A DNA stretch of 64,000 nucleotides from Muribaculaceae bacterium (lineage in GTDB: Bacteria; Bacteroidota; Bacteroidia; Bacteroidales; Muribaculaceae), in contig JAEETL010000002.1 in assembly GCA_016290325.1 (NCBI GenBank), positions 1 through 64,000 on the forward strand, in the 5' to 3' direction. Within the stretch, counting starts at the first letter, position 1, and every line of letters starts with the position of its first letter. Below are positions 17,735 through 32,334 of this stretch, in pieces. The notes beneath the pieces are model-generated. The model saw only the letters and a program-made list of their open reading frames with translations. It searched no databases and had not been told where the DNA came from. The translations under genes were made by a program, and so were the position numbers.

Positions 17735-19014
17735 TGTATCTTTACGGAGCAAGCGGACACGCAAAAGTCATAATTGACATAATGAAAGCGTCAGGTATAG
17801 TTATTGACGCATTGTTTGATGACGATAGGAGTATTCATGAATTGTTATCCATACCAGTGATGCATAACTGGGCTGGAGAATCTCCTCTTATCATTAGCAT
17901 TGGCAATAACTATTCACGAAAGCAAATTTCAGAGAAACTTAATTGTGAGTATGGCACTGTTATCCACCCATCAGCAATTATTTCTCCTAATGCTTCGATT
18001 GGTGAGGGATCTGTGGTGATGCATAGCGCAATTGTGCAAAGTGGAGCAAAGATAGGAAAGCATTGCATACTTAACACAGGTGTTTCGATTGATCATGAAT
18101 GTGTAATCGAAAATTTTGTGCACATCTCGCCTCAGGCAACGTTGTGCGGTAATGTCCATGTTGGTGAGGGCGCATGGATAGGCGCATCAGCTGTTGTGAT
18201 ACCAGGTGTAAAAGTTGGTAAATGGAGTACTATCGGAGCTGGCAGTGTTGTGGTCAAAGATGTTCCAGATGGGGCGCTGGCTTATGGCAATCCTTGCCGA
18301 ATAAAATGTATTCAAGCTGAACCGGCATTGAGAGATATTCATGAGAGAAATCAAGAGAATAAGCTTAAAAGAATTGCTGTCTATGGTGCTGGCGGATTAG
18401 GACGTGAAGTAGCGGGTGGAATTCAGCGCATTAACAATGCCAGTAGAGAAAACTGGGACTTTGTCGGCTTCTATGATGATAACTTGGAGGTTGGCACTCA
18501 GGTGTCCCACTATGGTGATGTGTTGGGCGGCATGAATGAACTCAACGCTGTTGAGGAGCCGCTTGCTTTGGCCATTGCTGTTGGCTCTCCTCAAATCCGT
18601 AAGTTGATTCGTGAGCGCATTACCAACCCCAACATCTATTTCCCGAACCTTATCGCTCCCTCCTTCAAGGTGTTAGATCTCCAAACCTTCAAGATGGGGC
18701 AGGGTAACATCATTCAGGATAGTTGCAGTGCCACATGTGATGTTACTATTGGCGATTTCAATGTATTTAATGGCGCTAACGTCATGGGACATGATGTTGT
18801 TATCGGCAATTACAATGTCTTTATGCCAAGCGTCCATCTATCGGGCGCAGTCGAGGTGGGAGATTGTAACCTCCTGGGCGTGGACAGCGTCGTTCTGCAG
18901 AAGGTTAAAATCGGCAAAGATGTGACCTTGGGCGCTGGCAGCGTACTTATGGCTAAGCCCAAAGATGGCAACACCTATATTGGCGTACCTGCCAAAAAGT
19001 TTGATTTCAAATAA
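17734..19014 (+). CDS. Double NeuD/PglD-type sugar acyltransferase fusion
   Basis: This 426-residue protein is made of two complete NeuD/PglD units. Each has a Rossmann-like sugar-nucleotide-binding start (MYLYGASGHAKVIIDIM at residue 1 and IAVYGAGGLGREVAGGI at about residue 214) followed by a left-handed beta-helix of hexapeptide repeats. The second unit is a close paralogue of the stand-alone protein at 25820. Family members acylate amino groups of nucleotide sugars, usually from acetyl-CoA. Start TAATG couples it to the phosphoglycosyltransferase. The neighbouring ACP genes suggest that one unit could use acyl-ACP (inference). Confidence 0.85.
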   Translation: MYLYGASGHAKVIIDIMKASGIVIDALFDDDRSIHELLSIPVMHNWAGESPLIISIGNNYSRKQISEKLNCEYGTVIHPSAIISPNASIGEGSVVMHSAIVQSGAKIGKHCILNTGVSIDHECVIENFVHISPQATLCGNVHVGEGAWIGASAVVIPGVKVGKWSTIGAGSVVVKDVPDGALAYGNPCRIKCIQAEPALRDIHERNQENKLKRIAVYGAGGLGREVAGGIQRINNASRENWDFVGFYDDNLEVGTQVSHYGDVLGGMNELNAVEEPLALAIAVGSPQIRKLIRERITNPNIYFPNLIAPSFKVLDLQTFKMGQGNIIQDSCSATCDVTIGDFNVFNGANVMGHDVVIGNYNVFMPSVHLSGAVEVGDCNLLGVDSVVLQKVKIGKDVTLGAGSVLMAKPKDGNTYIGVPAKKFDFK

Positions 19015-19033
19015 TTTAAATTTGTCCCTTCAG

Positions 19034-19792
19034 ATGGAACCTAACTATAATCCCTTTTCACTTGCAGGAAAGACGATACTTGTTACCGGCGCTTCTTCAG
19101 GCATTGGCCAGTCAACTGCCATCGCTTGTTCCCGCATGGGCGCTCGTGTTGTCGTGACCGCACGCAACCAAGAGCGCTTGCAGCAAACCTATGAGCAACT
19201 CAATAACGTTGTTGAAGGCCACATGCAGCAGCTTGCTGACCTGACATCACAAGAAGATTTGGAGCACCTGCTCGCGATGCTGCCACCGCTTGACGGGGCA
19301 GTCTTGTGTGCCGGCAATTCTACGACCTTGCCCTTACAGTTCGGCTCACGCGAGAAATTTGATGACATGTTCAATGTCAACTTCTTTGCACCGGTAGAAT
19401 TGCTGCGATTGTTATATAAGAAAAAACGCCTTAACAAAGGTGCATCTGTCGTGTTGGTCGCATCGATTGGCGGCACTCATAGCTTCATGCCAGGCAATGG
19501 TGTATACGGCGCTTCAAAGGCCGCGCTTAATTCAGTCATGAAGTATGCTGCCCGCGAGTACGCTTCCCGCAAGGTGAGGGTCAACAGCATCTGCCCGGGT
19601 ATGGTGGATACCCCTCTTATTCACCGGGGAACAATCACCGAGGAACAACTGGCCGAGGACGCCAAGAATTATCCTTTAGGGCGATATGGCATGCCCGAGG
19701 ACATCGCCAACGGTGCCATCTACCTCCTGAGTGACGCTTCGAGCTGGCTCACAGGCCACGATTTGGTGATTGACGGCGGCTTTTCAATATGA
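19034..19792 (+). CDS. SDR-family reductase, FabG-like
   Basis: This 252-residue classical SDR has GASSGIGQS at about residue 20, the catalytic serine region VVLVASIGG, YGASKAALN with Tyr-x3-Lys, and the C-terminal LVIDGG typical of 3-oxoacyl-ACP reductases. The ATG at 19034 gives a normal family N-terminus; an upstream in-frame ATG at 18965 lies inside the NeuD gene. It precedes two ACP genes, a ligase and a KASIII gene, so it likely reduces a beta-ketoacyl-ACP to a hydroxyacyl-ACP. A nucleotide-sugar substrate is the alternative. Confidence 0.82.
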   Translation: MEPNYNPFSLAGKTILVTGASSGIGQSTAIACSRMGARVVVTARNQERLQQTYEQLNNVVEGHMQQLADLTSQEDLEHLLAMLPPLDGAVLCAGNSTTLPLQFGSREKFDDMFNVNFFAPVELLRLLYKKKRLNKGASVVLVASIGGTHSFMPGNGVYGASKAALNSVMKYAAREYASRKVRVNSICPGMVDTPLIHRGTITEEQLAEDAKNYPLGRYGMPEDIANGAIYLLSDASSWLTGHDLVIDGGFSI

Positions 19793-19808
19793 TTTTTAAC
19801 AAACATTG

Positions 19809-19839
19809 TTTGTCGTATTAAAAAATAAGTGTACTTTTG
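19809..19839 (+). promoter_or_regulatory. Internal promoter before the first ACP gene
   Basis: TTTG at 19809-19812 and TACTTTTG at 19832-19839 are separated by 19 bases, a full match to the Bacteroidetes promoter. Transcription would start near 19846, giving a 50-base leader to the ACP gene at 19899. It would let the ACP-ligase-KASIII set be transcribed independently of the upstream glycan genes. Confidence 0.7.
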
Positions 19840-19898
19840 TGGCCGTTTTTATATGGAAATGATTATTCTGCATATATAAGAAGAACGCAAGAAGAACT

Positions 19899-20129
19899 AT
19901 GAGCATAACTGAATTTATTGAGAACTTTGCAGATCAGTTTGATGAAACTGACGTTACTTCTTTTACCCCCGAGACCAAATTCAAGCAACTCGACGAATGG
20001 TCATCATTGACCGCCCTGTCAATCATTGCGATGGTTGACGACGAATATGATGTCATCATTAAAGGTAACGATATTCTGAATTCTGAAACCATTCAGGATT
20101 TATTCGATATTATTGAGAAGCAGCAATAA
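19899..20129 (+). CDS. Acyl carrier protein (WSSL type)
   Basis: This is a 76-residue acidic four-helix protein of ACP size. The phosphopantetheine attachment region reads EWSSLTALSIIAMVDDEYDV; the serine at position 36 stands where ACPs have D-S-L, with the usual aspartate replaced by serine. It is closely related to the ACP at 26619 (shared FIENFAD, FDETD, EWSSL). It is followed 20 bases later by a second, more canonical ACP. It probably carries the growing or finished acyl group in the sugar-acylation pathway. Confidence 0.85.
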   Translation: MSITEFIENFADQFDETDVTSFTPETKFKQLDEWSSLTALSIIAMVDDEYDVIIKGNDILNSETIQDLFDIIEKQQ

Positions 20130-20149
20130 TCTTTTGCTGCTGTTTGTAA

Positions 20150-20380
20150 ATGGAAGATCAGGTAAAAGAAATCATCGCCAGGGTCTTGAATGTCGAGATC
20201 GGCGATATCACTGACGGCCTCTCATCAGGTGATATACCCCAATGGGATTCTGTTGGTAACCTGGCAATAATAAGTACCATTGAGCAGGAATTAAACATTG
20301 AGTTCCCGCTCGAAGTTTTATTCGATCTGACTTCGGTCCAGTCAATCGTGAATGAAGTCAATCTGCTGATGAATGTTTGA
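20150..20380 (+). CDS. Acyl carrier protein (WDSV type)
   Basis: This 76-residue ACP has the prosthetic-group motif QWDSVGNLAI (Ser34). Its acidic helices and the hydrophobic VLFDLTSVQSIVNEV end are typical of carrier proteins in non-ribosomal or polysaccharide acylation pathways. Its last 8 bases overlap the start of the AMP-forming ligase, so the two are translationally coupled. That makes it the best candidate for the ligase's acceptor. Its sequence is distinct from the upstream ACP, so the two probably have different partners. Confidence 0.85.
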   Translation: MEDQVKEIIARVLNVEIGDITDGLSSGDIPQWDSVGNLAIISTIEQELNIEFPLEVLFDLTSVQSIVNEVNLLMNV

Positions 20381-21833
20381 TGCTCCCCACAGCCAAGTGC
20401 TACGCTTGATTGCGGCACAAGCTGTAAACACCCCCGACAAGGTCGCCCTTGTAACGGGATTACAACGTGTAACCTACGCCCAGTTGGCAGATCATGTCGA
20501 GGGTGCGGCAGCCTATCTACGTGCCAGAGGCATTAAATCCGGAGACCACATCCTTTTGTCGGCCCAGAAAGAACTGGAGTTCGTCTATCTTTATTTGGCC
20601 GCCCATCTTTTGGGAATTGTCAATGTGGTCATCGATTCAGCGGCTCCCAAAGAACGCCTGGATTATATCATCGGTATTGTTCACCCAGTTGCCATGTTTG
20701 GCGGCGCTGTTGATGCCGAAGGGTATGATTTTATTCCTTTCAACGAGGTTACACTTAACCACGACAAGCTTGACAAGGACATTCTTCCGTCTCTCGAACC
20801 CACCGACGTCGCCGATGTCATGTTTACCACCGGAACGACGGGCATGCCTAAAGGCGTCTGCCTTACCCATGCTAATATCGCAGGATCGGCATCCAATACC
20901 AATGGTTTCATTGGCACTTGTGCCGACGATGTTGAGGCTTTAGCCTTGCCATTGAGCCATTCCTTCGGACTAGGACGCCTGCGTTGCGTGCTTACCGTTG
21001 GCGCCACTCTGGTTCTCGTGGGCAACTTTGCCAATCTCAAGGCATTCTTTAATGTCATTACCCAAGAGCATGTTACTGGATTTGGCATGGTCCCAGCCGT
21101 TTGGCAGTACATCAAGCGCTTAAGTGGCCGGAGGATAGGCCAGTTTGCTCATCAATTGCGCTATATTGAAATTGGAAGCGCAGCTTTGCCCATTGAGGAT
21201 AAACTCATGCTTATGGACCTGTTCCCCGATACCCGCATCTGCATGCACTATGGGCTCACCGAGGCCTCTAGGGCCATGTTCTGTGAGTTCCATGAGAGTG
21301 CCGATGATTTGGATACGATTGGGCACCCAGCTTCAAGCCAAGTAGAAGTGTGTGTGCTGGATGATAACGGCGAGTCGGTTGCCGATGGCGTAGATGGGGA
21401 AATCTGCGTTCGAGGTAACATGGTTATTTCTTCTTACTTCTTGGACTCCGATAACCACGATAGTTTCTTTGGCGATTGGTTCAGGACTGGGGACTGGGGG
21501 CATAAGGGTGCCAACGGCTCTTTCTATTTGACCGGACGTAAAAAGGAGTTGATTAATGTGGGAGGAGAGAAAGTAAGCCCCGTCACCATCGAGAAAGCCA
21601 TTATGTCGCTTGGGATACCTGATTGCGCGTGTATCGCTATCCCTGACCCTAATGGCGTGCTGGGAGAAGTTCCTAAGGCGTTTTTGCTCAAGAGCGATAT
21701 AAGCATTGATGAAATCAGGCAAGAACTGTTGCGCCTGCTGCCGCCGCATGAGATTCCCGTTCAATGGGAGTGGGTTGACGAACTGCCACGCACTTCATCG
21801 GGTAAAATCCAGCGGCTCAAATTGAAAAAATAA
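20373..21833 (+). CDS. AMP-forming acyl-ACP/acyl-CoA ligase
   Basis: This 486-residue ANL-superfamily adenylating enzyme activates a carboxylic acid with ATP and loads it on a thiol. The P-loop-like TTGTTGMPKG is near residue 150, MHYGLTEASRAMF is the A5-type motif, DWFRTGDWG and LTGRKKELINVGGEKVSP are A7/A8 motifs, and RTSSGKIQRLKL near the C-terminus carries the catalytic lysine. The start overlaps the ACP gene by 8 bases, so I favour acyl-ACP formation over acyl-CoA. The acid cannot be predicted from sequence. Confidence 0.88.
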   Translation: MFDAPHSQVLRLIAAQAVNTPDKVALVTGLQRVTYAQLADHVEGAAAYLRARGIKSGDHILLSAQKELEFVYLYLAAHLLGIVNVVIDSAAPKERLDYIIGIVHPVAMFGGAVDAEGYDFIPFNEVTLNHDKLDKDILPSLEPTDVADVMFTTGTTGMPKGVCLTHANIAGSASNTNGFIGTCADDVEALALPLSHSFGLGRLRCVLTVGATLVLVGNFANLKAFFNVITQEHVTGFGMVPAVWQYIKRLSGRRIGQFAHQLRYIEIGSAALPIEDKLMLMDLFPDTRICMHYGLTEASRAMFCEFHESADDLDTIGHPASSQVEVCVLDDNGESVADGVDGEICVRGNMVISSYFLDSDNHDSFFGDWFRTGDWGHKGANGSFYLTGRKKELINVGGEKVSPVTIEKAIMSLGIPDCACIAIPDPNGVLGEVPKAFLLKSDISIDEIRQELLRLLPPHEIPVQWEWVDELPRTSSGKIQRLKLKK

Positions 21834-21844
21834 CACATGATAAT

Positions 21845-22906
21845 ATGTCACAATTAACGATTAACAACGTGCGCATAGCGGGAATGAGCGCTTGCGTGCC
21901 AGCTACTGTCGAAGAAAACCTCAATCTGCCTATCTACAAAGACCAGAGCGAAGCCCTCAAGGTCATTGCATCGACAGGCATTGAGCGTCATCACAAGGTG
22001 GAGACCGGGACAACCGCTTCAGACCTAACCATGAAGGCCGTCGAGAAGCTTCTTGAGGATCTCGGGTGGCAATCACAGGACATCGATTGCTTTGCCTATG
22101 TGTGCACTTCAAGGGACTATATCGCTCCGCAAACGGCTTGTGTGCTCCAGGATCGCCTCAAGTTGCGCAGCGATTGCTGCGTGTTTGACCTTCCTTTCGG
22201 CTGCTCGGGCTGGGTTTACGGTATGAGCATAGTTGGCTCACTCATGTCCCATGGCACTTTCAAGCGTGCAATTCTGGTGGCTGCCGAGACCAATACCCAG
22301 AACCGCAATCCGCTAGATACAACGGTTCGCCCGCTCTTCGGCGACGCGGCAACAGCGACAGCGTTGGAATTTGATGGGCAGCGTTCCCGCCCCATGAATT
22401 TCATGTTCGGTGTCGATGGTAGCGGTTTCCAAGCGGTATGGGCTCCTTATGGAGGAATGCGCAACCCGGTCACGCCTGAGGCTTTGCAGGAGCAGGAAGT
22501 GTCACCCGGTGTCTTCCGCCGTGGTGTTGACATGGTTGTCAATGGCATGGACGTGTTCGGCTTTGCGATCAAGCGCCCGCCCCAATCGCTCAAGGATTTA
22601 ATCGCTACTTTCAATATTGATGTGGAAACTGTTGATTTGCTGCTGCTCCATCAGGCTAATAAGTTCATTGATGAGAAGATACGTAAATCAGTCAAGATAC
22701 CGGCCGAGAAAACGCCCTATTGCCTTGAGGAATATGGCAATGTCACCAGTGCTTCAATCCCGTTGACAATGGTTTCGCGCTGCCGTGAGACTTTAGCAGG
22801 CGAGGAGAAGCATTGCCTGGCTTGCGGCTTTGGCGTGGGGCTGGCATGGGCAAGCATGGAGTTCTATGCAGGCGATGTGAAAATCAGTGATATGGTTACT
22901 TACTAA
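21845..22906 (+). CDS. KASIII-like (FabH-family) condensing enzyme, copy 1
   Basis: This is a 353-residue thiolase-fold enzyme. The full Cys-His-Asn triad is visible: Cys120 in PFGCSGWVYG, His269 in LLLHQANKF and Asn299 in YGNVTSASIP. This supports active condensation (acyl-thioester plus malonyl-ACP) or acyl transfer of the kind some KASIII homologues perform. It follows the ligase after 11 bases. A paralogue with the same spacing of all three residues is at 26960. Primary-metabolism FabH is less likely given the polysaccharide context and divergent active-site surroundings. Confidence 0.85.
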   Translation: MSQLTINNVRIAGMSACVPATVEENLNLPIYKDQSEALKVIASTGIERHHKVETGTTASDLTMKAVEKLLEDLGWQSQDIDCFAYVCTSRDYIAPQTACVLQDRLKLRSDCCVFDLPFGCSGWVYGMSIVGSLMSHGTFKRAILVAAETNTQNRNPLDTTVRPLFGDAATATALEFDGQRSRPMNFMFGVDGSGFQAVWAPYGGMRNPVTPEALQEQEVSPGVFRRGVDMVVNGMDVFGFAIKRPPQSLKDLIATFNIDVETVDLLLLHQANKFIDEKIRKSVKIPAEKTPYCLEEYGNVTSASIPLTMVSRCRETLAGEEKHCLACGFGVGLAWASMEFYAGDVKISDMVTY

Positions 22907-22924
22907 TTATGGTTGACGACAATT

Positions 22925-24025
22925 ATGGCTCAATTTATCAACACAAATAAGGAGTATTACTGGGGCGACTGGTATTTCAAGGAGCATGTGATGGCCGATA
23001 TTTTCAATTACAAGGCCCACAAAAAGGAGCTCTCTCCCTATTATGAGCAGCGCGGCTTCAAGGTGTCGATGATGTTTGCCGACTTCTTCTCACAGATTAA
23101 CGGCATACACAGCGACCGCTACCTCTCGATGGACGTGTATTATTTCTTTGTCGTTCCAGCGCTCAATCGCTATGATTTCATCAATGCTTATCTCGATAAG
23201 AACATCTATACCGAGTTGTTTCCCAATGTGAAACAGCCGGCGACCATCATCAAAAACATCCATGGACATTATTACCATGATGGTGAAGAGATTACATGCG
23301 ACGATGCCGTGAGAATCGTGAGCCAAACCAATCTCGAAATGATGATTAAGCCCACGGTCGAAACCTGTAACGGCGATGGGGTAGAGCAATTAGTCGACCT
23401 AGACCCTAATCATTTGAAAACCCTTTTCGACCACTACAGGCTCAACTTCATCGTTCAAGAGAAAGCAAAACAGCATCCCGAGATTCAGCGGGTGAATCCC
23501 ACTTCATTGAACTCGATGCGCCTGTATACATATCGAAAACTGGACGGCACCTATGCTTTCCTCTATCCTTACGCGATGTTGCGTTTTGGTGGCAAGGGCG
23601 CGATTAAGGACAACACTTCCAAGGGCGGAGGTACTTGCTTAATCGATGAGAATGGCCATGTTGATGACAAGGTCTACCGTTTCAAGAGTCTTGAGGTCTC
23701 ATCGCTCAAGCGCGAGACTGGGGTTGAGGATCTGGTAATTCCTCATTATCAGCGGGTAATAGATACTTTGCTTGAGGCCCATAAGCGCTTACCTTATTTC
23801 GATTATGTGGGCTGGGATGTTACGGTGTCACCCGATGGCGAGCCCCTGCTCATCGAGTTTAACCTCGTGCCCGGAATTGAAGGTCCACAAATTATGGCTG
23901 GACCCATGTTCGGTCCTTACCTCGATGAGGTGATTGACCGCGCGCGCCAGGTTGTATGTGAAAAGGCTCAAGCCAATAAGAAGACTTTCGGTAAGGGCTC
24001 ATCTTTCTATCTGCACATGCAGTAA
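22925..24025 (+). CDS. Sugar-transfer-associated ATP-grasp enzyme
   Basis: This is a 366-residue protein. The pattern NPTSLNSMRLYTYRK, then DNTSKGGGTCLIDENG, then FDYVGWDVTVSPDGEPLLIE, matches the ATP-grasp family found in polysaccharide loci (ATPgrasp_ST). The glutamate and asparagine of LIEFNLVPG provide the metal/ATP site. Such enzymes join a carboxylate to an amine or hydroxyl through an acyl-phosphate. I start at the ATG at 22925 rather than the TTG at 22913. It lies between KASIII and the MBL gene, so it may couple an amino acid or similar group to the acyl-sugar (inference). Confidence 0.8.
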   Translation: MAQFINTNKEYYWGDWYFKEHVMADIFNYKAHKKELSPYYEQRGFKVSMMFADFFSQINGIHSDRYLSMDVYYFFVVPALNRYDFINAYLDKNIYTELFPNVKQPATIIKNIHGHYYHDGEEITCDDAVRIVSQTNLEMMIKPTVETCNGDGVEQLVDLDPNHLKTLFDHYRLNFIVQEKAKQHPEIQRVNPTSLNSMRLYTYRKLDGTYAFLYPYAMLRFGGKGAIKDNTSKGGGTCLIDENGHVDDKVYRFKSLEVSSLKRETGVEDLVIPHYQRVIDTLLEAHKRLPYFDYVGWDVTVSPDGEPLLIEFNLVPGIEGPQIMAGPMFGPYLDEVIDRARQVVCEKAQANKKTFGKGSSFYLHMQ

Positions 24026-24040
24026 CATGAATTGAATTTA

Positions 24041-24622
24041 ATGATGACCATTCGCCAAATCGTGAATTCAGTCTATAGCTCCTGTAGCTATGTGCTGACG
24101 CAGGACAAGCAGTCGTGGCTAGTTGATTGTGGCGATGTGGATCAAATCCTCCCCCTCGTTGAAGGCAAGTTGCAAGGTGTGTTGCTCACCCATGCCCATT
24201 TTGACCACATTTATGGCTTGAACAACTTGGTTTCCCTTTTCCCGGGTCTTACTGTTTACACGATTATGGCAGGTTTCAACGGGTTGTTGAGCGATAAACT
24301 CAATTTCTCAAGGTATTATGGTGATCCGTTCATCTTCGATTCACCTGATAGTGTCAAGCTTGTTCGGGATGGAGAGTGTATCAGTTTATTTGAGGGCGTT
24401 GAGATTAAGGCTGTTGCTACTCCAGGCCACAGCCCGGGTTGTGTGACTTGGGTGACCGAAGATGCGATCTTTACTGGGGACAGCTATATCCCTGGCGTGA
24501 AAACCGTCGCCAATCTCCCTCATTCCGATAAGGAATTGGCTTTGAAAAGCGAAGCGTTGATACGGGACATGGTCGAGAATCGATCAATTTATCCCGGTCA
24601 CGCCGCAAGTAATGAAATTTAA
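24041..24622 (+). CDS. Metallo-beta-lactamase-fold hydrolase, glyoxalase II-like
   Basis: This 193-residue MBL-fold protein has the metal motif LTHAHFDHIYGL (H-x-H-x-D-H), then TPGHSPGCVTW, the bridging aspartate in IFTGDSY and a last histidine in YPGHAA. Family members hydrolyse thioesters, so an editing or release role on acyl-ACP is possible here. In-frame TTG at 24032 is less likely than the ATG at 24041. It is packed between the ATP-grasp gene (15 bases) and the aminotransferase gene (15 bases), clearly within the same operon. Confidence 0.8.
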   Translation: MMTIRQIVNSVYSSCSYVLTQDKQSWLVDCGDVDQILPLVEGKLQGVLLTHAHFDHIYGLNNLVSLFPGLTVYTIMAGFNGLLSDKLNFSRYYGDPFIFDSPDSVKLVRDGECISLFEGVEIKAVATPGHSPGCVTWVTEDAIFTGDSYIPGVKTVANLPHSDKELALKSEALIRDMVENRSIYPGHAASNEI

Positions 24623-24637
24623 TTGAACAATAATTAT

Positions 24638-25780
24638 ATGGCTAACAACAAAATTCTTCTTTGCCTTGCTCACATGAGTGGACAGGAGATGAAGTACATT
24701 CAAGAGGCTTTCGACACTAACTGGGTTGTCCCTTTGGGCCCCAATGTCAATGCCTTTGAACAGGATCTCGAGAAATTGTGCGGTGAGGGAAAACATGTAG
24801 TAGCACTGAGTGCGGGTACTGCTGCCATTCATTTGGCGCTGGTCAATCTGGGAGTTGGACCTGGCGATGAGGTGATTTGCCAGTCAATGACGTTCTCGGC
24901 AAGTGCCAATCCAATTGTATATCAGGGCGGAACGCCAGTGTTTGTAGATAGTGAGCCTGGTACCTGGAACATGGACCCCAACCTGCTCGAGGAGGCTATC
25001 AAAGACCGTATTGCTAAAACGGGTCGCAAACCTAAGGCCATGATTCCCGTGTATCTCTATGGTATGCCGGCCATGATTGATGACATCATGGAGATTGCTC
25101 ACCGTTACGAGATTCCGGTCATTGAGGATTCGGCCGAGGCATTTGGCTCGCGTTATCGTGGCCGATTGTGCGGCACGTTCGGTGATTTCGGTATTATGAG
25201 CTTCAATGGTAACAAGATGATTACCACCAGCGGTGGCGGTGCCTTGATTTGCTCTGATGAGGCAACCAAAAAGAAAACCATGTTCTATGCCACTCAGTCG
25301 CGTGAACCCATGCCTTACTATCTTCACAAGGAGATTGGCTACAACTATCGCATGAGCAACATCTGTGCGGGCATCGGCCGCGGCCAGATGTTTGTGCTGG
25401 ATGAGCACCTAGCTCATCATAAGCACCTGTGTGACCGCTATGTTGAACTCTTCGCCGATGTTGACGGCATCACTGTTCACACCAACCTAGATGGGCGTTC
25501 CGACAGCAACTATTGGCTCAACACTATCCTCGTTGACCCCGACAAAACGGGTACCGACTATGAGACAATACGTCAGCATCTTGATGCTTGCAATATCGAG
25601 TCCCGCCCGTTGTGGAAACCCATGCACACCCAGCCTGTCTTCTCAGGTGCTCCGGCCTATGTCAATGGCGTGAGCGAGGAACTGTTTACCAAGGGATTAT
25701 GCTTGCCTAGTGGACCTTGGGTCAGCGATGAGGATGTGGAACGGGTAGCGCGTGAAATTATCGCTTGCTGCAAGAAATAA
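24638..25780 (+). CDS. DegT/DnrJ/EryC1-family sugar aminotransferase
   Basis: This 380-residue PLP enzyme converts a nucleotide 4- or 3-keto sugar to an amino sugar. Characteristic segments are HVVALSAGTAAIHLAL, DEVICQSMTFSASANPI, VIEDSAEAFGS (cofactor aspartate) and SFNGNKMITTSGGGAL with the PLP lysine. The sequence resembles the UDP-4-amino-sugar (PglE-like) branch, fitting a PglC/PglD context, but the PglF-type dehydratase is not in this window. It would supply the amine that a NeuD protein acylates. The start at ATG 24638 is preferred to the TTG at 24623. Confidence 0.88.
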   Translation: MANNKILLCLAHMSGQEMKYIQEAFDTNWVVPLGPNVNAFEQDLEKLCGEGKHVVALSAGTAAIHLALVNLGVGPGDEVICQSMTFSASANPIVYQGGTPVFVDSEPGTWNMDPNLLEEAIKDRIAKTGRKPKAMIPVYLYGMPAMIDDIMEIAHRYEIPVIEDSAEAFGSRYRGRLCGTFGDFGIMSFNGNKMITTSGGGALICSDEATKKKTMFYATQSREPMPYYLHKEIGYNYRMSNICAGIGRGQMFVLDEHLAHHKHLCDRYVELFADVDGITVHTNLDGRSDSNYWLNTILVDPDKTGTDYETIRQHLDACNIESRPLWKPMHTQPVFSGAPAYVNGVSEELFTKGLCLPSGPWVSDEDVERVAREIIACCKK

Positions 25781-25819
25781 AATTGAATTAGATTACAAAC
25801 CACATAATATCAAAAGATT

Positions 25820-26461
25820 ATGAAGATCGCAATATATGGAGCTGGAGGCTTTGGCAAGGAAGTGGCTTGCTTGATCGAGAGAATCAACCGCAACAACGGC
25901 GATTGGCAGTTGATAGGATTCTTTGACGACACTAAGCCAGTTGGATCAACTGTTTCCCGCTATGGTAAAGTCCTGGGTGACATTAAAGCTCTTCAGGAGA
26001 TTAAAGAACCCCTGGCTGTCGCTTTTGCCATCAACGCCAATAAGGCCGTGCGTCGCATCCGCGAGGCGATTACCAACGATAACATCACCTTCCCCAATTT
26101 GATAGATCCCTCATTATTCTATGTGGACCCAATGACGGTAACCATGGGCGAGGGTAACATCATTCAGAATCACTGCATGATCTCATGTGATGTCAAGATT
26201 GGTAATTTCAATCTCATTAACGATCATGTCGTTATCGGTCATGACAACATCATTGGTGATTATAACGGACTGATGCCTGGTGCCCATTTGTCAGGTGGAA
26301 TAACGATTGGTGACAGTAATTTGCTGGGTGTCGCTAGCGTGGTTCTGCAGGGTATGAACATCGGTGATGGAGTGACTTTGGGTGCTAATAGTGTACTCAT
26401 GACCCAACCCAAAAATAACAGCACTTATCTTGGTGTTCCGGCGCGCAGGTTTGATTTTTAA
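25820..26461 (+). CDS. NeuD/PglD-type sugar acyltransferase
   Basis: This 213-residue protein has an N-terminal MKIAIYGAGGFGKEVACL nucleotide-sugar-binding half and a C-terminal left-handed beta-helix (hexapeptide repeats from about residue 110, ending STYLGVPARRFDF). It is paralogous to the second half of the fusion at 17734. It follows the aminotransferase by 39 bases, the arrangement expected for an N-acyltransferase acting on that enzyme's product. A general-base histidine is available in HVVIGHDN. The acyl donor may be acetyl-CoA (family norm) or one of the local acyl-ACPs (inference). Confidence 0.85.
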   Translation: MKIAIYGAGGFGKEVACLIERINRNNGDWQLIGFFDDTKPVGSTVSRYGKVLGDIKALQEIKEPLAVAFAINANKAVRRIREAITNDNITFPNLIDPSLFYVDPMTVTMGEGNIIQNHCMISCDVKIGNFNLINDHVVIGHDNIIGDYNGLMPGAHLSGGITIGDSNLLGVASVVLQGMNIGDGVTLGANSVLMTQPKNNSTYLGVPARRFDF

Positions 26462-26566
26462 CCTGATTTCGGCATGAAAACTCATTCGCCCCTATTGGAA
26501 ATGTTAAAGATGCAATGAAATACCTAAGATAATTACAAACTTAGTGCAACTTTAAGATTTTTTATG

Positions 26567-26574
26567 TAATTTTG
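26567..26574 (+). promoter_or_regulatory. -7 box before the third ACP gene
   Basis: TAATTTTG matches TAnnTTTG. The expected -33 position holds TTAG, a weak match. Transcription would start near 26581 with a leader of about 40 bases before the ACP at 26619. It parallels the promoter at 19809 before the paralogous ACP. Confidence 0.5.
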
Positions 26575-26618
26575 CACGCCGTAAAAATATTTGAGGTATT
26601 TTTGCGTTATATTATAGA

Positions 26619-26852
26619 ATGAATTTGGAGCAATTCATAGAGAATTTCGCAGATCTGTTTGATGAAACAGATACTGACACTATAAATGCCACAACTCAAT
26701 TCAAGGATATTGAGGAATGGTCATCTTTGCTCGCATTGTCTGTTATTGCGATGATAGACGAGGAATATGACGTCGAGTTCAAGGGTGATGACATTCGTGG
26801 AAGCAATACCGTTGAGGACCTTTATAACATTGTTAAATCCAGAGTAGAGTAA
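26619..26852 (+). CDS. Acyl carrier protein (WSSL type), copy 2
   Basis: This 77-residue ACP is paralogous to the one at 19899 (shared FIENFADLFDETD, IEEWSSLLALSVIAMIDEEY). Ser36 is the predicted phosphopantetheine site, in a W-S-S-L rather than D-S-L context. It is followed by a KASIII gene about 107 bases downstream, mirroring the NeuD, ACP and KASIII contents of the first cassette. The acidic surface and length are normal for a discrete ACP. Confidence 0.85.
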   Translation: MNLEQFIENFADLFDETDTDTINATTQFKDIEEWSSLLALSVIAMIDEEYDVEFKGDDIRGSNTVEDLYNIVKSRVE

Positions 26853-26959
26853 GGCATGAGGAATATGTGACAGCATTTCATTGGCTTTAGCTGATGGAAG
26901 TTTGTTGTGTATCATTTTCTATTTACTCTGCTAACCAATATTCAAAACGCCAGTCAAGT

Positions 26960-28009
26960 ATGGCAAAGATTTCTTTTCATGGAGTTGGCATTAAGGCTAT
27001 AAGTGCTTGTGTGCCAAAGGATGTCGTGTATAATAGGGATTTGGGATACCTCATTCCCCAGGAGGAAATAGATAAAGTCATTGACAATATCGGTATAGAA
27101 GAGAGGCGCATTGCTCCCAATGATGTGACAGCTAGCGATTTGTGCTTCAAGGCGGCACAAAAACTCATGGATGACAACGACATTGCCCCCGAGAGTATAG
27201 ATGTGTTGTTGTTTATGAGCCAAACGTCCGATTATCGCATCCCCGCGACATCATGTATCATGCAACATCGTTTGGGATTACCTAAAACGACGCTGTGTTT
27301 CGACATCTCGTTAGGATGCTCGGGCTATCTGTTCGCGCTCAGTACGGCGTTTGCCTACGCTTCAATGGATGGCATCAATCGGGTGTTACTGCTCGATGGC
27401 GAAACCTTCTCCAAGATTGTCAATCGGCGCGACAAGGTGGACTGGCCGCTTTATGGCGATGCAGGCACAGCAACTTTGGTTGAAAAGGGCGATTTTGACG
27501 ACGCTACCTTTATCCTCAATACCGATGGCAGTGGTGAAGACGCTCTTAAGATTCACGCTGGAATGCGCAACCCCATTACCCCCGAATCGTGTGTCGAGCG
27601 GGAGCAGGAAGATGGCAACATCCGCAATGACCTTGAGGTGTTTATGGACGGAATGGATGTGTTTAATTTCGCCATTAGCAAGGTGCCCCGATGCGTCAAG
27701 GAATTGCTCAGCGTTACTGGAAAGACCGTCGATGATGTAGACTATCTCGTCTTCCATCAGGCTAACCGCTTCATGATGGACTTCTTCGTGAAGAAACTGA
27801 AAATGGATCGCACCAAAGTTCCTTATTGCATCAGCAAGTACGGGAATACCAGTAGCACGTCTGTGCCCTTGACCGTTGCCAGTGAACTCTGTGGCAAGCT
27901 TGGTGGCGAGAATACTGTGGTGATGAGCGGTTTCGGTGCTGGCCTCAGTTGGGGTGCGGCGTTGATCCCGATGAAGAACTGCAACGTTTCTCCCGTTATT
28001 GAATATTAA
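26960..28009 (+). CDS. KASIII-like (FabH-family) condensing enzyme, copy 2
   Basis: This 349-residue protein is paralogous to the enzyme at 21845. The catalytic triad is Cys120 (SLGCSGYLF), His266 (LVFHQANRF) and Asn296 (YGNTSSTSVP). I choose the ATG at 26960; an upstream in-frame ATG at 26894 adds 22 residues with no family resemblance. The stop overlaps the VOC gene start (TAATG), so translation is coupled. It probably works with the ACP at 26619. Whether it condenses or transfers acyl groups cannot be decided from sequence. Confidence 0.85.
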   Translation: MAKISFHGVGIKAISACVPKDVVYNRDLGYLIPQEEIDKVIDNIGIEERRIAPNDVTASDLCFKAAQKLMDDNDIAPESIDVLLFMSQTSDYRIPATSCIMQHRLGLPKTTLCFDISLGCSGYLFALSTAFAYASMDGINRVLLLDGETFSKIVNRRDKVDWPLYGDAGTATLVEKGDFDDATFILNTDGSGEDALKIHAGMRNPITPESCVEREQEDGNIRNDLEVFMDGMDVFNFAISKVPRCVKELLSVTGKTVDDVDYLVFHQANRFMMDFFVKKLKMDRTKVPYCISKYGNTSSTSVPLTVASELCGKLGGENTVVMSGFGAGLSWGAALIPMKNCNVSPVIEY

Positions 28010-28416
28010 TGGCTGAACTGCTCACCTTCCATCATATTGGCATCGCTTGTCGCGATATAGCCAAGACATCGGCTTTTTACCAGTCGATGGGCTACATTGT
28101 GCATCCGGTTATTCCAGACCCCTTGCAGCATGTGAATGTCTGTTTTATGGAGAAGGAAGGTGCTCCTCGGGTTGAATTACTTGAGCCGCTTGATGAGCAA
28201 AGCCCAGTGCTGAGGACGCTGGACGCTGTGGGCGTCTCTCCCTATCACACGTGTTACGAGGTTAAGGACATTCAGGAAGCCATCGCCCAGTTGCGCAGGC
28301 AGCGTTTCATGCTGGTCAATGGTCCTGTTCCCGCTTGTGCCTTGGAAAACAGGAACATTGCGTTCATGTTTAATAAAAATTCAGGACTTATCGAGTTAGT
28401 CGAAGCCTTTAAGTAA
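28009..28416 (+). CDS. VOC-superfamily protein, methylmalonyl-CoA epimerase/glyoxalase-like
   Basis: This 135-residue vicinal-oxygen-chelate protein has two beta-alpha-beta-beta-beta units. Likely metal ligands include the histidine in FHHIGIAC, the glutamate in RVELLEPL, the histidine in YHTCYEV and the glutamate in GLIELVEAF. Methylmalonyl-CoA epimerase is the closest well-known relative, which would fit epimerisation of an alpha-substituted acyl thioester. It is coupled to its neighbours by TAATG overlaps on both sides. The precise reaction is unknown. Confidence 0.8.
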   Translation: MAELLTFHHIGIACRDIAKTSAFYQSMGYIVHPVIPDPLQHVNVCFMEKEGAPRVELLEPLDEQSPVLRTLDAVGVSPYHTCYEVKDIQEAIAQLRRQRFMLVNGPVPACALENRNIAFMFNKNSGLIELVEAFK

Positions 28417-29429
28417 TGTCTAACGTCCTGTTGACTTACATCCTGCCGGTTTACAATACCGCGCCTTATCTTACCAAGTGCCTGCAATCCCTGCTTAATC
28501 AGGGCCTGCAGCCTGAGGAGTATGAGGTGATTGCTGTTGATGATGGCTCGAGTGACAATAGCCGCGAGGTGATTGAGGCCTTGGCTAAGGACCATCCCCA
28601 GATTCGATTGATTACCCAAGCCAATGCCGGCGTTAGTGCGGCCCGCAACAGGGCTTTAGATAACGCCCGTGGACGTTTTGTCCAGTTTGTTGACAGTGAC
28701 GACTATCTTGAGGAGAACGTGATGGGACCACTCTTGAGACGTGCCGTTGACGAGGACCTCGATGTCCTCATGTTCAACTTCAAGTGGGTAGATACCGACG
28801 GTAATTTCATCAAAGTTTCAAAGCCCCTTGATGAAATGCCTCCTACAACGCCTGTCATGAATGGGCCAGAGTTTTTGGACCACTATCCCATGATGCAGTA
28901 TGTTTGCTGGTATCTGGTGAGACTGGAGCACCTTAACCGCTTGAGCCTCAGGTTTGACACCTCGCTCATCGCATGTGAAGACGGCGCGTTGGCTGCTAAG
29001 TTCCTGCTTCATGCCAGTCGGGTGGCTTATAACGATGCGACTCCTTATTGTTATGTGAACCGCAGTGATAGCGCCATGAATAACACCGACCGTAATCATT
29101 TGCTCCGTCGTATTTTTAGTCAAATTGATGCCGCTGCCTTGATTAATCGCTCCATCACTGATTATGAAGCGACAACTGGTGCTCAGTCTCCCGCAAGTGT
29201 GAAGGGATTGAGAAACCTGTATTTGTTTTTCAGCATGACCAAGTCACTCACTTGCGGCTGTGTAGATGAGGTTGTTGCCCATATGCGTGACCTGGGGCTT
29301 TACCCGTTCCCGTGTATCGGGCCTGAAATCAATTACATCGGCACAAAGTGGAAAATCCTTCACGGCTTAATGATGCATCCCAGGGTGTGGTCATTCTTAA
29401 GCCGGCTTTATGGAATGGTAAAAAACTAA
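28416..29429 (+). CDS. Glycosyltransferase family 2
   Basis: This 337-residue GT2 enzyme has LTYILPVYNTAPYLTKCLQS, the nucleotide loop VDDGSSDNS and the metal site QFVDSDDYLE at about residue 90. It overlaps the VOC gene (TAATG) and is followed 2 bases later by the FkbH-like gene. Its placement inside the ACP module rather than the main GT block suggests that it transfers the acylated sugar. GC content is higher than in the 7-12 kb genes, more like the host genes. Confidence 0.82.
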   Translation: MSNVLLTYILPVYNTAPYLTKCLQSLLNQGLQPEEYEVIAVDDGSSDNSREVIEALAKDHPQIRLITQANAGVSAARNRALDNARGRFVQFVDSDDYLEENVMGPLLRRAVDEDLDVLMFNFKWVDTDGNFIKVSKPLDEMPPTTPVMNGPEFLDHYPMMQYVCWYLVRLEHLNRLSLRFDTSLIACEDGALAAKFLLHASRVAYNDATPYCYVNRSDSAMNNTDRNHLLRRIFSQIDAAALINRSITDYEATTGAQSPASVKGLRNLYLFFSMTKSLTCGCVDEVVAHMRDLGLYPFPCIGPEINYIGTKWKILHGLMMHPRVWSFLSRLYGMVKN

Positions 29430-29431
29430 GT

Positions 29432-31024
29432 ATGAATACTTTTGTTTATCGAAATCAAACGGTTGAGACCCTGTTTGGCGATGATGGCATAGCTTATTCA
29501 GGCTATGGGGACATCAGTTTGGTGCCACAGGATGTGGACCGATATATCTGGTGCTATCAAGTTCCAGTGAATGCCGACAGCACTCAACTGGCTCAGGAGA
29601 TAGCGTCCTACCGCGACAAACTCGAGCTTGTATTGTCAAAAATCGATGCGCACAAGCCGTTTATCATATTCTCGCTTGTAAATCTATTCCCGATAAAACT
29701 CACAGGTGATGATGTCGCTGTAGATCATGCGGTAATGGATTTTAACCGCCATGTGGCTCAGTTGGCTGATCATCATCCCAACGTCAAGAGGGTGGATTTC
29801 TCTGATTTCACCTCCCGATACGATGCATATACTTTAGTCAATTGGAAATACTTCCTCATGTCGCAGTCCCTGATCAATCCAAAACTGGCGCGCGACTTCC
29901 AGGCTTGGTGGCGGCGGATCGAGGGAGAACTTGCCTTGAAACGCAAGAAATGTCTGGTGCTTGACCTCGATAACACCCTATGGGATGGGGTCCTTGGCGA
30001 GGATGGCGTTGACGGCATCAAGCTAGGTGGGGATTATCCCGGTAACGCATTCTCTTATTGGCAGCGCGCTTTGTTGCAGTTGTCGCGCAATGGCGTGATA
30101 TTGGCGATTTGCAGCAAGAATAATGAAGCCGACGTTCAGGAGGCTTGGGATTGCAATCCGTTTATGGAGCTCAAGAGAGAGCATTTCAGTGCTTTGCGCA
30201 TTAATTGGACCGATAAGGTTACCAATATCCGAGATATAGCTGATGAACTCAACATAGGCTTGGATAGTTTTGTGTTTATCGATGACAATCCGGCCGAGAG
30301 GGAACTGGTCAAGCAGATGCTGCCACAGGTGACTGTGCCCGATTTTCCTGAGAAACCTTACATGCTCATGCCTTTCTTCAAGGAATTGGTCGAGCGGTAT
30401 TTCCGCATCTATGCCGTCACTGCCGAGGACCGCAACAAGACTCAGCAGTATCAGGCCAATGCGATGCGCAGGGCCCAGCAGGCAAGGTTTGCCGACTTGG
30501 ATAGCTACCTGCGCAGCCTGTTGATGGAGATTGACATTATTCCCGCCGACGACTTTAACATGCCGCGCATCGCCCAGATGACGCAAAAGACCAATCAGTT
30601 CAATCTCACGACCCGCCGTTATACCGAGGCCGACATACGCCAGCGGCTGAATGACGGTTGGCGCGTTTATTGCATGAGCGTGAGAGACCGTTTTGGCGAC
30701 AGTGGTGTCACGGGTGCCATTTTCCTCGAGCAGATTGACTGGGATACCGTGGGAATTGACTCGTTGTTGCTCAGTTGCCGCGTTTTGGGAAAAGGCATCG
30801 AGGACGCGTTTTTAGGCACGGTGCTCAATCTGTTGCATGACGAGGGCGTGCAGAAGGTCGTCGCCGATTACCTTCCCACTGCTAAGAATGGACAGACCGC
30901 CGATTTTTATGATCGCATAGGCATGGAATGTATCGGTATAGCTGATGACAGCTCCAAGCATTATGTGATGACATTGGATAAAGAGACTGAAATAAAAGAT
31001 TATTATAAAATCAAGGTATTATGA
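29432..31024 (+). CDS. FkbH-like HAD-superfamily protein (acyl-ACP loading, predicted glyceryl-type)
   Basis: This 530-residue protein has a central HAD phosphatase domain with the nucleophile motif LVLDLDNTLWDG (Asp178, Asp180), FVFIDDNPAERELV further on, and a C-terminal GNAT-like region (about residues 370-510, DSGVTGAIFLEQIDW). FkbH proteins take 1,3-bisphosphoglycerate, dephosphorylate it and load glyceryl units on an ACP. The ACP gene overlaps its stop by 4 bases (ATGA), as in polyketide systems. I start at ATG 29432; an upstream in-frame ATG lies inside the GT2 gene. Confidence 0.85.
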   Translation: MNTFVYRNQTVETLFGDDGIAYSGYGDISLVPQDVDRYIWCYQVPVNADSTQLAQEIASYRDKLELVLSKIDAHKPFIIFSLVNLFPIKLTGDDVAVDHAVMDFNRHVAQLADHHPNVKRVDFSDFTSRYDAYTLVNWKYFLMSQSLINPKLARDFQAWWRRIEGELALKRKKCLVLDLDNTLWDGVLGEDGVDGIKLGGDYPGNAFSYWQRALLQLSRNGVILAICSKNNEADVQEAWDCNPFMELKREHFSALRINWTDKVTNIRDIADELNIGLDSFVFIDDNPAERELVKQMLPQVTVPDFPEKPYMLMPFFKELVERYFRIYAVTAEDRNKTQQYQANAMRRAQQARFADLDSYLRSLLMEIDIIPADDFNMPRIAQMTQKTNQFNLTTRRYTEADIRQRLNDGWRVYCMSVRDRFGDSGVTGAIFLEQIDWDTVGIDSLLLSCRVLGKGIEDAFLGTVLNLLHDEGVQKVVADYLPTAKNGQTADFYDRIGMECIGIADDSSKHYVMTLDKETEIKDYYKIKVL

Positions 31025-31248
31025 ACTTAGAAGACCAAGTGATGGAGATCATGCGTTCGGTATTCGGCATTGAAGAGATCTCTACCGACATATCTCAGAA
31101 GAATTGTGAGCGCTGGGACTCGTTGCGCCATCTGACAATGGCTTCAGAGCTGGAAGATGCTTTCGATATAGAGCTTGAGCCTGAGGAGATTGCCGAGATG
31201 ACCGACTTCTCGCGTGTTGTCTCCATGATCAATTCAAAATTGAAATAG
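31021..31248 (+). CDS. Acyl carrier protein paired with the FkbH-like enzyme
   Basis: This 75-residue ACP carries RWDSLRHLTM with the phosphopantetheine Ser34 in a standard D-S-L motif. The start overlaps the FkbH-like gene by 4 bases (ATGA). By analogy to FkbH/ACP pairs it is the likely acceptor of a glyceryl or related three-carbon unit. It differs from the two WSSL-type ACPs, giving the locus at least three kinds of carrier protein. Confidence 0.87.
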   Translation: MNLEDQVMEIMRSVFGIEEISTDISQKNCERWDSLRHLTMASELEDAFDIELEPEEIAEMTDFSRVVSMINSKLK

Positions 31249-31260
31249 AGCATTGACTGT

Positions 31261-31289
31261 GCCCGTCAGGGTGTTTTTAACCCTCGGGC
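31261..31289 (+). terminator. Hairpin after the fourth ACP gene
   Basis: GCCCG (261-265) pairs with CGGGC (285-289), and AGGG (268-271) pairs with CCCT (281-284), with a 2-base bulge and a T-rich loop. No T-run follows, so it may be a partial terminator or a 3'-end stabiliser between the ACP module and the downstream genes. Confidence 0.35.
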
Positions 31290-31308
31290 TTAGCAGGTGC
31301 CGGGATGG

Positions 31309-32334
31309 ATGACGATGGCCAGGGAGCGCATTGCCTATATCGATTTCATGAAGTGCCTGTGCATCATGCTCATCGTGATGTACCACATTGACCATGATTT
31401 CTTTAATTATCTGCTCCCAAACCTGAATGATGCTTTGCAGGCTTTTCGCCTGCCGATGTATTATTTCATTTCAGGCATCTTTTTTAAGCTCTACGAGGGC
31501 TTTGCCGATTTCACGCGGCGCAAGGTGAATAACATCCTTGTGCCGTTTGTTTTTTTTATCGTTTTTGCCTATCTTGTCAGGTGTTGTGAGGCTGTTTTCC
31601 GCATGGCCATTGGTGCCGAGGCGATTGACTTGTCACCCATCCGCCTTGTGGAGCCGTTCTACTTGCGTTATTGGGCGATAACCACTCCCTTGTGGTTCCT
31701 GCCCAGCCTGTTTTGGGTGAACATCATCTTTTATGCCATGCATCGCTTGATCAAGCCCATTTGGGGGCTATTGGCAGCGACGGTTGTGCTTTCGATTATT
31801 GGTTACTACTTGGGAATCAATAAAATAGAATTACCCTTAATGCTGGATTCCTCGTTAGTGGCGATGCCTTACTTCGTGCTGGGGTGGGGCATGAAGCGCC
31901 TGGGGGTATTGACGCCTTCTCGCTGGGATAAGTTTGGTATAATCGCTTTACTGGCAGTTTCGGTACCCATTTACCTGTTGAGTGAATTTATGAACTTGCA
32001 CTTCCAGGTCTTTCCTGCTTATTGGAAACTCTATCTCTTGCCGTTTGTGGCTATATTGTCCTTGTTTTGGGCCTGTAAACCGCTGCCACGTATTCCTGTG
32101 TTCTGTCACTATGGTCGGTATTCGCTCATTATCTTGGGTACTCATCCGTTGTTTTTCCTTCCCATTCGTTTCCTTTTCGTGCATTTTGGCATGGAGCCTG
32201 GCGTGGAACTCACCTTGTTCGTCTTCGTCTTGACGATGTTGTGTGAATGGCCTTTGATATGGTTGCTCAAGACTTATGCGCCTCGTTTTTCGGCTCAGGA
32301 GCCTTTCTTCAAGCCAGGATGGAAAATATGCTAA
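31309..32334 (+). CDS. Acyltransferase family 3 membrane protein
   Basis: This 341-residue polytopic membrane protein has the family start RIAYIDFMKCLCIMLIVMYH and FRLPMYYFISGIFF, matching the conserved FRMPLFFFLSG segment of acyltransferase-3 enzymes. It has about ten transmembrane helices. It probably acylates an extracellular or membrane-side glycan hydroxyl. Starts at GTG 31297, ATG 31309 and ATG 31315 are all possible; I favour 31309. It sits downstream of the ACP module, but family members normally use acetyl-CoA. Confidence 0.78.
   Translation: MTMARERIAYIDFMKCLCIMLIVMYHIDHDFFNYLLPNLNDALQAFRLPMYYFISGIFFKLYEGFADFTRRKVNNILVPFVFFIVFAYLVRCCEAVFRMAIGAEAIDLSPIRLVEPFYLRYWAITTPLWFLPSLFWVNIIFYAMHRLIKPIWGLLAATVVLSIIGYYLGINKIELPLMLDSSLVAMPYFVLGWGMKRLGVLTPSRWDKFGIIALLAVSVPIYLLSEFMNLHFQVFPAYWKLYLLPFVAILSLFWACKPLPRIPVFCHYGRYSLIILGTHPLFFLPIRFLFVHFGMEPGVELTLFVFVLTMLCEWPLIWLLKTYAPRFSAQEPFFKPGWKIC

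Follow-up and report, generated by a model that had tools for sequence, protein, structure and literature searches.

The first 64,000 nucleotides of contig JAEETL010000002.1 from a Muribaculaceae bacterium (assembly GCA_016290325.1), here called the window and the frame of all coordinates given for it, carry a run of genes in which enzymes of acyl carrier protein (ACP) chemistry lie among those of surface-glycan assembly. An initial annotation, made from the letters alone, had pointed to the interval 19034-31248 as an ACP-based acyl pathway within a polysaccharide locus. In this work we describe this gene block, its recurrence in other genomes and the partnerships among its genes, which we sort into two acyl lines: line A, with an AMP-forming ligase, a KASIII-type 3-ketoacyl-ACP synthase (KAS_A) and an ATP-grasp enzyme, and line B, with FkbH and a second such synthase (KAS_B).

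Genes of the locus

The block and its borders read as follows (ORF, open reading frame; SDR, short-chain dehydrogenase/reductase):

17096-17734, +, PglC-like sugar-phosphate transferase (Bac_transf, PF02397, 208.9 bits), the last gene of the variable side
17734-19014, +, fused ORF of 426 amino acids with two PglD_N domains, the N half a PglD (variable), the C half an acyl-line PglD (constant)
18965-19792, +, SDR as the longest ORF (PF13561, 179.5 bits); 19034 is the likelier start, as in relatives
19899-20129, +, ACP1, EWSSL type, line A (PF00550, 21.9 bits)
20150-20380, +, ACP2, WDSV type, line A, adjoining the ligase (PF00550, 34.1 bits)
20373-21833, +, AMP-forming acyl ligase, line A (PF00501, 234 bits)
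21845-22906, +, KAS_A, KASIII type, line A (Cys120 and His269; Asn299 read from the sequence)
22913-24025, +, ATP-grasp enzyme, line A (ATPgrasp_ST, PF14397, 97.8 bits against a cut-off of 31.4)
24032-24622, +, metallo-beta-lactamase (MBL)-fold hydrolase (PF00753, 55.7 bits)
24623-25780, +, DegT aminotransferase (PF01041, 315 bits)
25820-26461, +, NeuD/PglD-type N-acyltransferase (TIGR03570, 163.9 bits against a cut-off of 160.8)
26619-26852, +, ACP3, EWSSL type, line B (PF00550, 25.0 bits)
26894-28009, +, KAS_B, KASIII type, of the FkbH-partnered clade, line B (probable start near 26960)
28009-28416, +, VOC protein, methylmalonyl-CoA-epimerase-like, line B (PF13669, 80.8 bits)
28416-29429, +, GT2 glycosyltransferase within line B (PF00535, 113.3 bits)
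29348-31024, +, FkbH, line B (TIGR01686, 286.3 bits against a cut-off of 146.65; true start probably near 29432)
31021-31248, +, ACP4, WDSL type, line B, adjoining FkbH (PF00550, 21.9 bits)
31297-32334, +, membrane acyltransferase (Acyl_transf_3, PF01757, 98.7 bits), the usual, not invariable, block end (17 of 20 loci)

The block genes, all on the forward strand, overlap or are separated by less than 50 nt, except at three gaps of about 100-160 nt. Pfam and NCBIfam scans confirmed the SDR, the AMP-binding ligase, the two KASIII, the MBL fold, the VOC protein (Glyoxalase_4) and the GT2, and all four ACPs exceed the Pfam PP-binding cut-off of 20.8 bits; every enzyme class named in the initial annotation thus lies where it was placed. 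Its count of several NeuD-type genes in the interval comes down to one, with two further PglD/NeuD domains in the fused ORF just upstream, and what it took for a near-complete fatty-acid kit has no dehydratase, enoyl reductase or malonyl transferase among the ORFs scanned (a malonyl-transferase-type gene, PF00698, is present in a relative, locus L066). The PglC-like transferase likely loads the first sugar onto the lipid carrier, the SDR, retained in relatives devoid of line A, is a probable 3-oxoacyl-ACP reductase, and the MBL-fold hydrolase is a possible editing thioesterase. DegT resembles LegC, with a score below the cut-off of that model (TIGR04181, 358.5 against 420 bits).

A constant block among variable neighbours

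A search seeded with the ATP-grasp enzyme, and taking one genome per species, returned 24 loci, in which the presence of that enzyme is therefore by construction. We counted the 20 uninterrupted ones (L006-L022 and L024-L026), leaving out L023 and L028 (broken contigs of one metagenome-assembled genome, each agreeing as far as covered), L027 (from Kiritimatiellae, where the run is shorter and reads ACP-KAS-SDR-KAS-ACP-ligase-ATP-grasp) and L029 (with nothing but the ATP-grasp gene). We looked for the same gene order in other genomes, a check that the initial annotation had proposed, and the order SDR-ACP1-ACP2-ligase-KAS_A-ATP-grasp-(MBL)-DegT-NeuD-ACP3-KAS_B-VOC-GT2-FkbH-ACP4 is identical in 20 of 20, more than chance would give, with ACP4 directly after FkbH in all of them. 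The MBL gene is missing in two loci (L016, L025) and the downstream acyltransferase in three (L011, L014, L022); L013 has an additional ATP-grasp-like match (28%) inside the block, ahead of ACP3. Small genes that ORF calling had missed were recovered by tblastn (VOC in L018, ACP1 in L008, ACP2 in L026). The genes upstream of PglC, over the few kb covered, are mostly poor matches to the window, with exceptions such as GT4a (80% in L021) and GT2a (70% in L019). KAS_B itself recurs at 74% identity or more in 42 of 101 genomes searched in the window's genus, its own included. Some of the loci and genomes coincide (the genes of L013 and L094 are identical, and L021 matches genome G164 in position), so that the counts given here are not independent.

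The constant part begins in the middle of an ORF, where the second PglD domain follows, in the same frame, on N-terminal partners that differ across species: another PglD, a domain of the FemAB/GNAT kind or an ATP-grasp domain resembling PylC. Long hits could be divided at a motif in 23 of 24 cases, L013 and L094 being the same gene and the 24th (L027) another protein; the N-terminal domains were assigned by Pfam in L006, L007 and L014 and judged from the first residues in the others. Counterparts of the fused border ORF lie in L006-L008, L010-L026, L093 and L094, with these three kinds of N-terminal enzyme. In the PglD tree, the group of the NeuD at 25820 is sister to that of the fused C half, both within a clade of 23 rows (99% SH-aLRT) that consists of PglDs near ACP or KAS genes, and the N half of the fused ORF falls elsewhere. 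These two acyl-line PglDs are the only close sisters across the two cassettes. A recent tandem duplication of the cassettes was considered and rejected, KAS_A and KAS_B lying in separate, well-supported clades.

Pairing of the four ACPs

ACP4-like hits adjoin FkbH in 31 of 32 cases and ACP2-like hits adjoin the ligase in 23 of 26 (FkbH in one), while a KAS or SDR stands beside 41 of the 42 ACP1-like and 43 of the 45 ACP3-like hits, two of the latter adjoining FkbH. In the block, then, the WDS type adjoins FkbH or the ligase and the EWSS type adjoins a KAS or the SDR, and all eight divergent loci with KAS_B and FkbH have one EWSS ACP at the KAS/SDR and one WDS ACP at FkbH. We take the block ACPs to form two starter/extender pairs, in which WDS would mark the starter carrier and EWSS the extender carrier. 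Such a rule for this block, by which the starter ACP lies next to its loading enzyme and the extender ACP next to its KAS, would explain why four ACPs are retained.

FkbH, KAS_B and the VOC protein

The intact catalytic triads that the initial annotation had read in the two KASIII hold widely: of the 72 rows in the KAS tree, 53 were checked and all have the catalytic Cys and His (FkbH-side KAS_B 17 of 17, other B-type KAS 15 of 15, A-type KAS 21 of 21), and an alignment of 18 KAS_B shows no variation at the Cys, His or Asn. A housekeeping FabH role was rejected for both, as their scores of 155.2 and 211.1 bits fall well short of the 292.1-bit cut-off of the FabH model (TIGR00747) and contig 79 has a further KASIII gene, the third, which we take for the housekeeping FabH.

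FkbH has a match in 26 of the 247 genomes of the family searched. In an alignment of 21 rows, chosen from 39, its D206, D208 and T210 (DLDNT), Q417-F418-N419 (QFNL) and S476-C477-R478 (SCR) are invariant. The HAD DxDxT and the C-terminal motifs are presumably marks of the FkbH family, and we propose, from the sequence, that the protein acts as a glyceryl transferase/phosphatase. Its partnership with KAS_B is strict. Among 97 KAS proteins in the loci, 34 of which match KAS_A best, the 30 rows at 53% identity or more to KAS_B all have FkbH within 1.6 kb, and the 33 KAS_B-best rows below 48% have none within 3 kb, 12 of these lying less than 3 kb from the end of the stretch examined and two pairs among them being the same genes twice (L013 = L094). 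The FkbH-partnered KAS_B form one clade (98% SH-aLRT, 17 rows) in a rapidly built 72-row tree whose other parts have long branches. As to seed bias, 22 of the 30 rows belong to the same block and six more loci came from the FkbH-seeded search; three genomes of that search (G227, G135, G109) were also recovered by a KAS_B-seeded search of the genus. In a KAS_B-seeded search of the order, free of this bias, FkbH was found, in the stretches examined, in both genomes at 56% or more and in none of the 13 at 48% or less. Eight divergent loci (L064-L069, L100, L101) have KAS_B with FkbH-ACP4, and the SDR adjoins KAS_B in all eight; L065, L068 and L069 hold a single run PglC-PglD-ACP-[KAS]-SDR-KAS_B-(VOC)-FkbH-ACP4. 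Given so strict a partnership, the glyceryl-derived arm suggested in the initial annotation gains support, and line B looks, from its genes, to be primed with glycerate.

The VOC protein falls below the cut-off for methylmalonyl-CoA epimerase (TIGR03081, 64.5 against 114.95 bits) within the same superfamily (PF13669). It is found in five of the eight divergent KAS_B-FkbH loci and in four of the seven FkbH-ACP loci with no KAS in the stretch (present in L070, L072, L073 and L075; absent in L071, L074 and L076), a count that leaves out L077 and L078, with weak FkbH-like matches (26-27%) and no ACP found. L070 has FkbH-ACP4-PglD and VOC, and no KAS in 13.8 kb. Since VOC accompanies FkbH-ACP even where there is no KAS, it looks as if it belongs with FkbH and not with chain extension, and its substrate is probably glyceryl-ACP itself, on which it would act as an optional enzyme, as fits an epimerase.

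In L072-L076, FkbH-ACP adjoins an MBOAT-like gene (Pfam-tested only in L074), with no KAS, perhaps as a glyceryl-type O-acylation system; VOC stands in L072, L073 and L075, and a MaoC/SDR pair in L076.

The ligase line and its loss

In three loci of the same genus (L119, L120, L122) the SDR is followed directly by the MBL gene; ACP1, ACP2, the ligase, KAS_A and the ATP-grasp enzyme are jointly absent and line B is kept. With a threshold of E 1e-60, each of these genomes gives one KAS match and no more, so KAS_A does not lie elsewhere in them at that level. As the three form one clade in a five-gene tree, nested among line-A loci next to L012 (100%), line A was lost once, and looks like a separable ligase block that some relatives have shed.

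The ligase itself is found at E 1e-80 or better in 3 of 344 genomes of the order, the window's own included, with at most four candidates scored per genome. The ATP-grasp enzyme is found at E 1e-25 or better in 17 of the 247 genomes of the family, and at 65% identity or more in 11 of those, all of the window's genus and its own included. A ligase-side ACP occurs in L089 (same genus; by tblastn only, 33% identity) and in L123 and L124 (same order). The ligase might adenylate an amino acid, its nearest solved structures being adenylation domains of gramicidin synthetase, but the residues around the usual substrate site read, by a motif that we assume to be diagnostic, like those of acyl ligases; the enzyme probably loads ACP2. 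A phmmer search of the ATP-grasp enzyme against PDB sequences gave no match up to E = 1, and its predicted fold is nearest to, and of the same kind as, that of the RimK/ArgX amide ligases.

Beside these we note split transketolase pairs within sugar-acylation cassettes of L089 (11012-12794; Pfam-tested) and L124 (7240-8992), adjoining KAS, SDR and AMP ligase, and in L123 (9032-14408) a row of ACP, AMP ligase, iron alcohol dehydrogenase and a LuxE-LuxC fusion, which we take to recall the tetronate genes of V. cholerae O1. On contig 36 of the window's own genome (83543-86782), an ORF of 2420 amino acids with two carrier domains is probably a multimodular synthetase.

Flanking genes

In the variable part of the window, the genes at 3467-6811 (nucleotidyltransferase, sugar dehydratase, epimerase, RmlC-like) resemble a CDP-deoxyhexose set. 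On the other side the locus is adjoined by a protein of 670 amino acids with a dockerin and a chitobiase C-terminal-like domain (36726-38738, reverse strand). In 17000-36600 there are 33 promoter-like matches, against 26.9 in shuffles (standard deviation 5.4), and 17 terminator-like ones, against 16.9 (standard deviation 3.8), counts so close to the shuffled ones that they are uninformative on transcripts.

Comparison with known systems

The initial annotation could name no parallel to this gene combination. There is one in the wfp O-antigen cluster of Flavobacterium psychrophilum, described, in the passages of the source that concern it, as holding PglC, a PglD-type acyltransferase, an ACP, two 3-ketoacyl-ACP synthases, a ketoreductase, pglE and pglF (PMC6519341). 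Its authors proposed by homology that an ACP-made hydroxyacyl group is moved by the PglD homologue and the sugar by the PglC homologue; the product that the cluster is proposed to make is 3,5-dihydroxyhexanoyl-bacillosamine, with the acyl structure from nuclear magnetic resonance, and this acyl amino sugar stands at the reducing end (PMC6519341). The window likewise has PglC, a PglD-type acyltransferase, ACP, two KAS and a ketoreductase in a single run, to which it adds FkbH, VOC, the AMP ligase, ATP-grasp and a second ACP pair, none of them named for wfp in those passages (PMC6519341). The pglF of the wfp cluster, on the other hand, has no counterpart within the window's cluster (PMC6519341): the best Polysacc_synt_2 match lies on contig 5 (401.1 bits), the window's contig showing only a partial match of 47.7 bits at 4294. 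The proposal that short hydroxyacyl groups are made on ACP for amino-sugar N-acylation is strengthened by the clade of PglDs near ACP/KAS genes and by the PglC-PglD-ACP runs of three relatives (L065, L068, L069), even as the lack of a parallel and the near-complete kit alleged with it fall away.

FkbH, a discrete ACP and a FabH-like enzyme also stand together in glycerate-utilisation operons for tetronates, as the relevant part of PMC7489565 sets out, and the block holds the same trio. Those operons release a polyketide chain as a tetronate, whereas the window's trio is surrounded by an SDR, PglD, aminotransferase and glycan genes (PMC7489565), with no polyketide synthase among the ORFs scanned (7860-36512). 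Likened by structure, and from what the review passages give, the nearest sugars are the D-glyceroyl-bacillosamine of the O-antigen of Pragia fontium 97U124, whose N-acyl likewise derives from glyceryl and sits on a sugar of that kind but is plain and without extension, and the N-[(S)-3-hydroxybutyryl]-D-alanyl-Qui4N of E. coli O123, a model for an amide-joined hydroxyacyl such as the line A ATP-grasp enzyme might make (PMC10609480). The 2,3-di-O-methylglyceroyl pseudaminic acid of C. jejuni flagellin, described in part of PMC3068675, again has glyceroyl joined as an amide to an amino sugar of a bacterium, there a nonulosonic acid on flagellin. In the open-licence literature, where absence is weak evidence, we found no closer published parallel than PMC6519341. 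Nor did a search of the same literature return a paper joining Bacteroid-, FkbH and polysaccharide. The C. jejuni locus presumably carries FkbH, FabH and ACP genes as well.

Interpretation and alternatives

On balance, and with moderate confidence, we read these genes as a constant block making N-acylated 4-amino-6-deoxy sugars for an otherwise variable surface glycan through two ACP acyl lines. The substrates, order of steps and products of both lines, including the acyl structures and the role of VOC, we infer as follows. DegT would aminate a UDP-4-keto-6-deoxy sugar, a full-length PglF/CapD-type dehydratase being encoded elsewhere in the genome. In line B, FkbH would put glycerate from 1,3-bisphosphoglycerate on ACP4, VOC may invert carbon 2 of the glyceryl group, KAS_B would condense glyceryl-ACP4 with malonyl on ACP3, and reduction by the SDR would give about 3,4,5-trihydroxypentanoyl-ACP. 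In line A, the ligase would load an acid onto ACP2, KAS_A condense it with malonyl on ACP1 and the SDR reduce the product, to which the RimK/ArgX-like ATP-grasp enzyme may add an amide-linked unit. Transfer of the acyl chains onto the amine of the sugar would fall to the PglD/NeuD enzymes, and PglC or GT2 would hand the sugars into the lipid-linked glycan. In this fully specified form, with a glycerate line in which VOC inverts C2 of the ACP-bound glyceryl and a dedicated KASIII makes a polyhydroxy-pentanoyl, a ligase line with an ATP-grasp amide ligase as its last enzyme, and two N-acyl sugars in a constant part of the glycan, the scheme is tentative and could well fail in one or other of its parts. 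We know of neither predicted N-acyl sugar from a glycan.

Several observations weigh against this interpretation. Neither a malonyl transferase nor a PglF-type dehydratase was found in the block, and the residues distinguishing the FkbH-partnered KAS gave no glyceryl pocket or clear active-site reading. VOC is missing from three of the eight divergent KAS_B-FkbH loci, three A-type KAS (L064, L067, L068) likewise lie within 3 kb of FkbH, and the FkbH-free rows include the truncated surroundings and repeated genes given above. EWSS is no general mark of KAS-side ACPs, with DS read in many loci without FkbH (L013, L093, L094, L098, L103, L105, L111, L112 and others). The PglDs of the FkbH loci L066 and L101, and other KAS-side PglDs, fall in different clades; L120 and L122, which lack line A, yet retain both acyl-line PglDs, and L119 has line B with only the fused one, which tells against assigning each acyltransferase neatly to one line. 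Finally, the known FkbH-ACP-FabH trios make tetronates (PMC7489565).

This last likeness might suggest that KAS_B joins glyceryl-ACP4 to a beta-ketoacyl-ACP from line A and closes a tetronate-like ring, the trio being the core of tetronate clusters (PMC7489565). Such chemistry seems improbable here, since four of the eight divergent FkbH-KAS_B loci (L065, L066, L069, L101) have one KAS, with SDR and a PglD-type gene beside it and no second KAS in the stretch, line B is kept without KAS_A in L119, L120 and L122, and ring closure would leave the acyltransferases no thioester. The two synthases could instead act in turn, KAS_B and then KAS_A, on one acyl group to give one longer polyhydroxy acid, as could hold for F. 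psychrophilum, for which the passages on wfp name two KAS and one ACP (PMC6519341), and L064, L067 and L068 do have one EWSS ACP, with A-type and B-type KAS around one SDR, and FkbH-ACP4. We regard this as unlikely for the window, which has a pair each of EWSS ACPs and of loading enzymes, and in whose relatives the five genes of line A were lost jointly with line B remaining.

It is also conceivable that FkbH delivers plain D-glyceroyl to the sugar amine and that KAS_B works independently, using acetyl-CoA. The gene run of L070, devoid of KAS, would suit this, as does the existence of D-glyceroyl-bacillosamine in Pragia fontium, cited in the review (PMC10609480), but the gathering of the FkbH-partnered KAS_B in one clade, 30 of 30 near FkbH, makes it unlikely. 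Least credible, and in our view highly improbable, is a separate lipid or secondary-metabolite pathway merely adjoining the glycan genes: KASIII, ACP and ligase genes do occur in metabolite clusters too, but within the block the acyl genes have PglD, DegT, NeuD and a glycosyltransferase among them, and five relatives (L065, L068, L069, L088, L089) have PglC-PglD-ACP runs.

In conclusion, the two-line block looks like a case of ACP-dependent N-acylation of amino sugars, a process that is well supported and not wholly new, in a version, started on glycerate and running in two lines, that looks new. It would link the loading of glycerate, known from antibiotics, with the decoration of surface sugars in mostly uncultured gut and rumen Bacteroidales, and it predicts specific acyl groups. 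The constancy of the block, the variability of the rest of the locus and the position of the border inside a fused gene suggest that the block makes an invariant portion of the glycan, which other machinery has to recognise.

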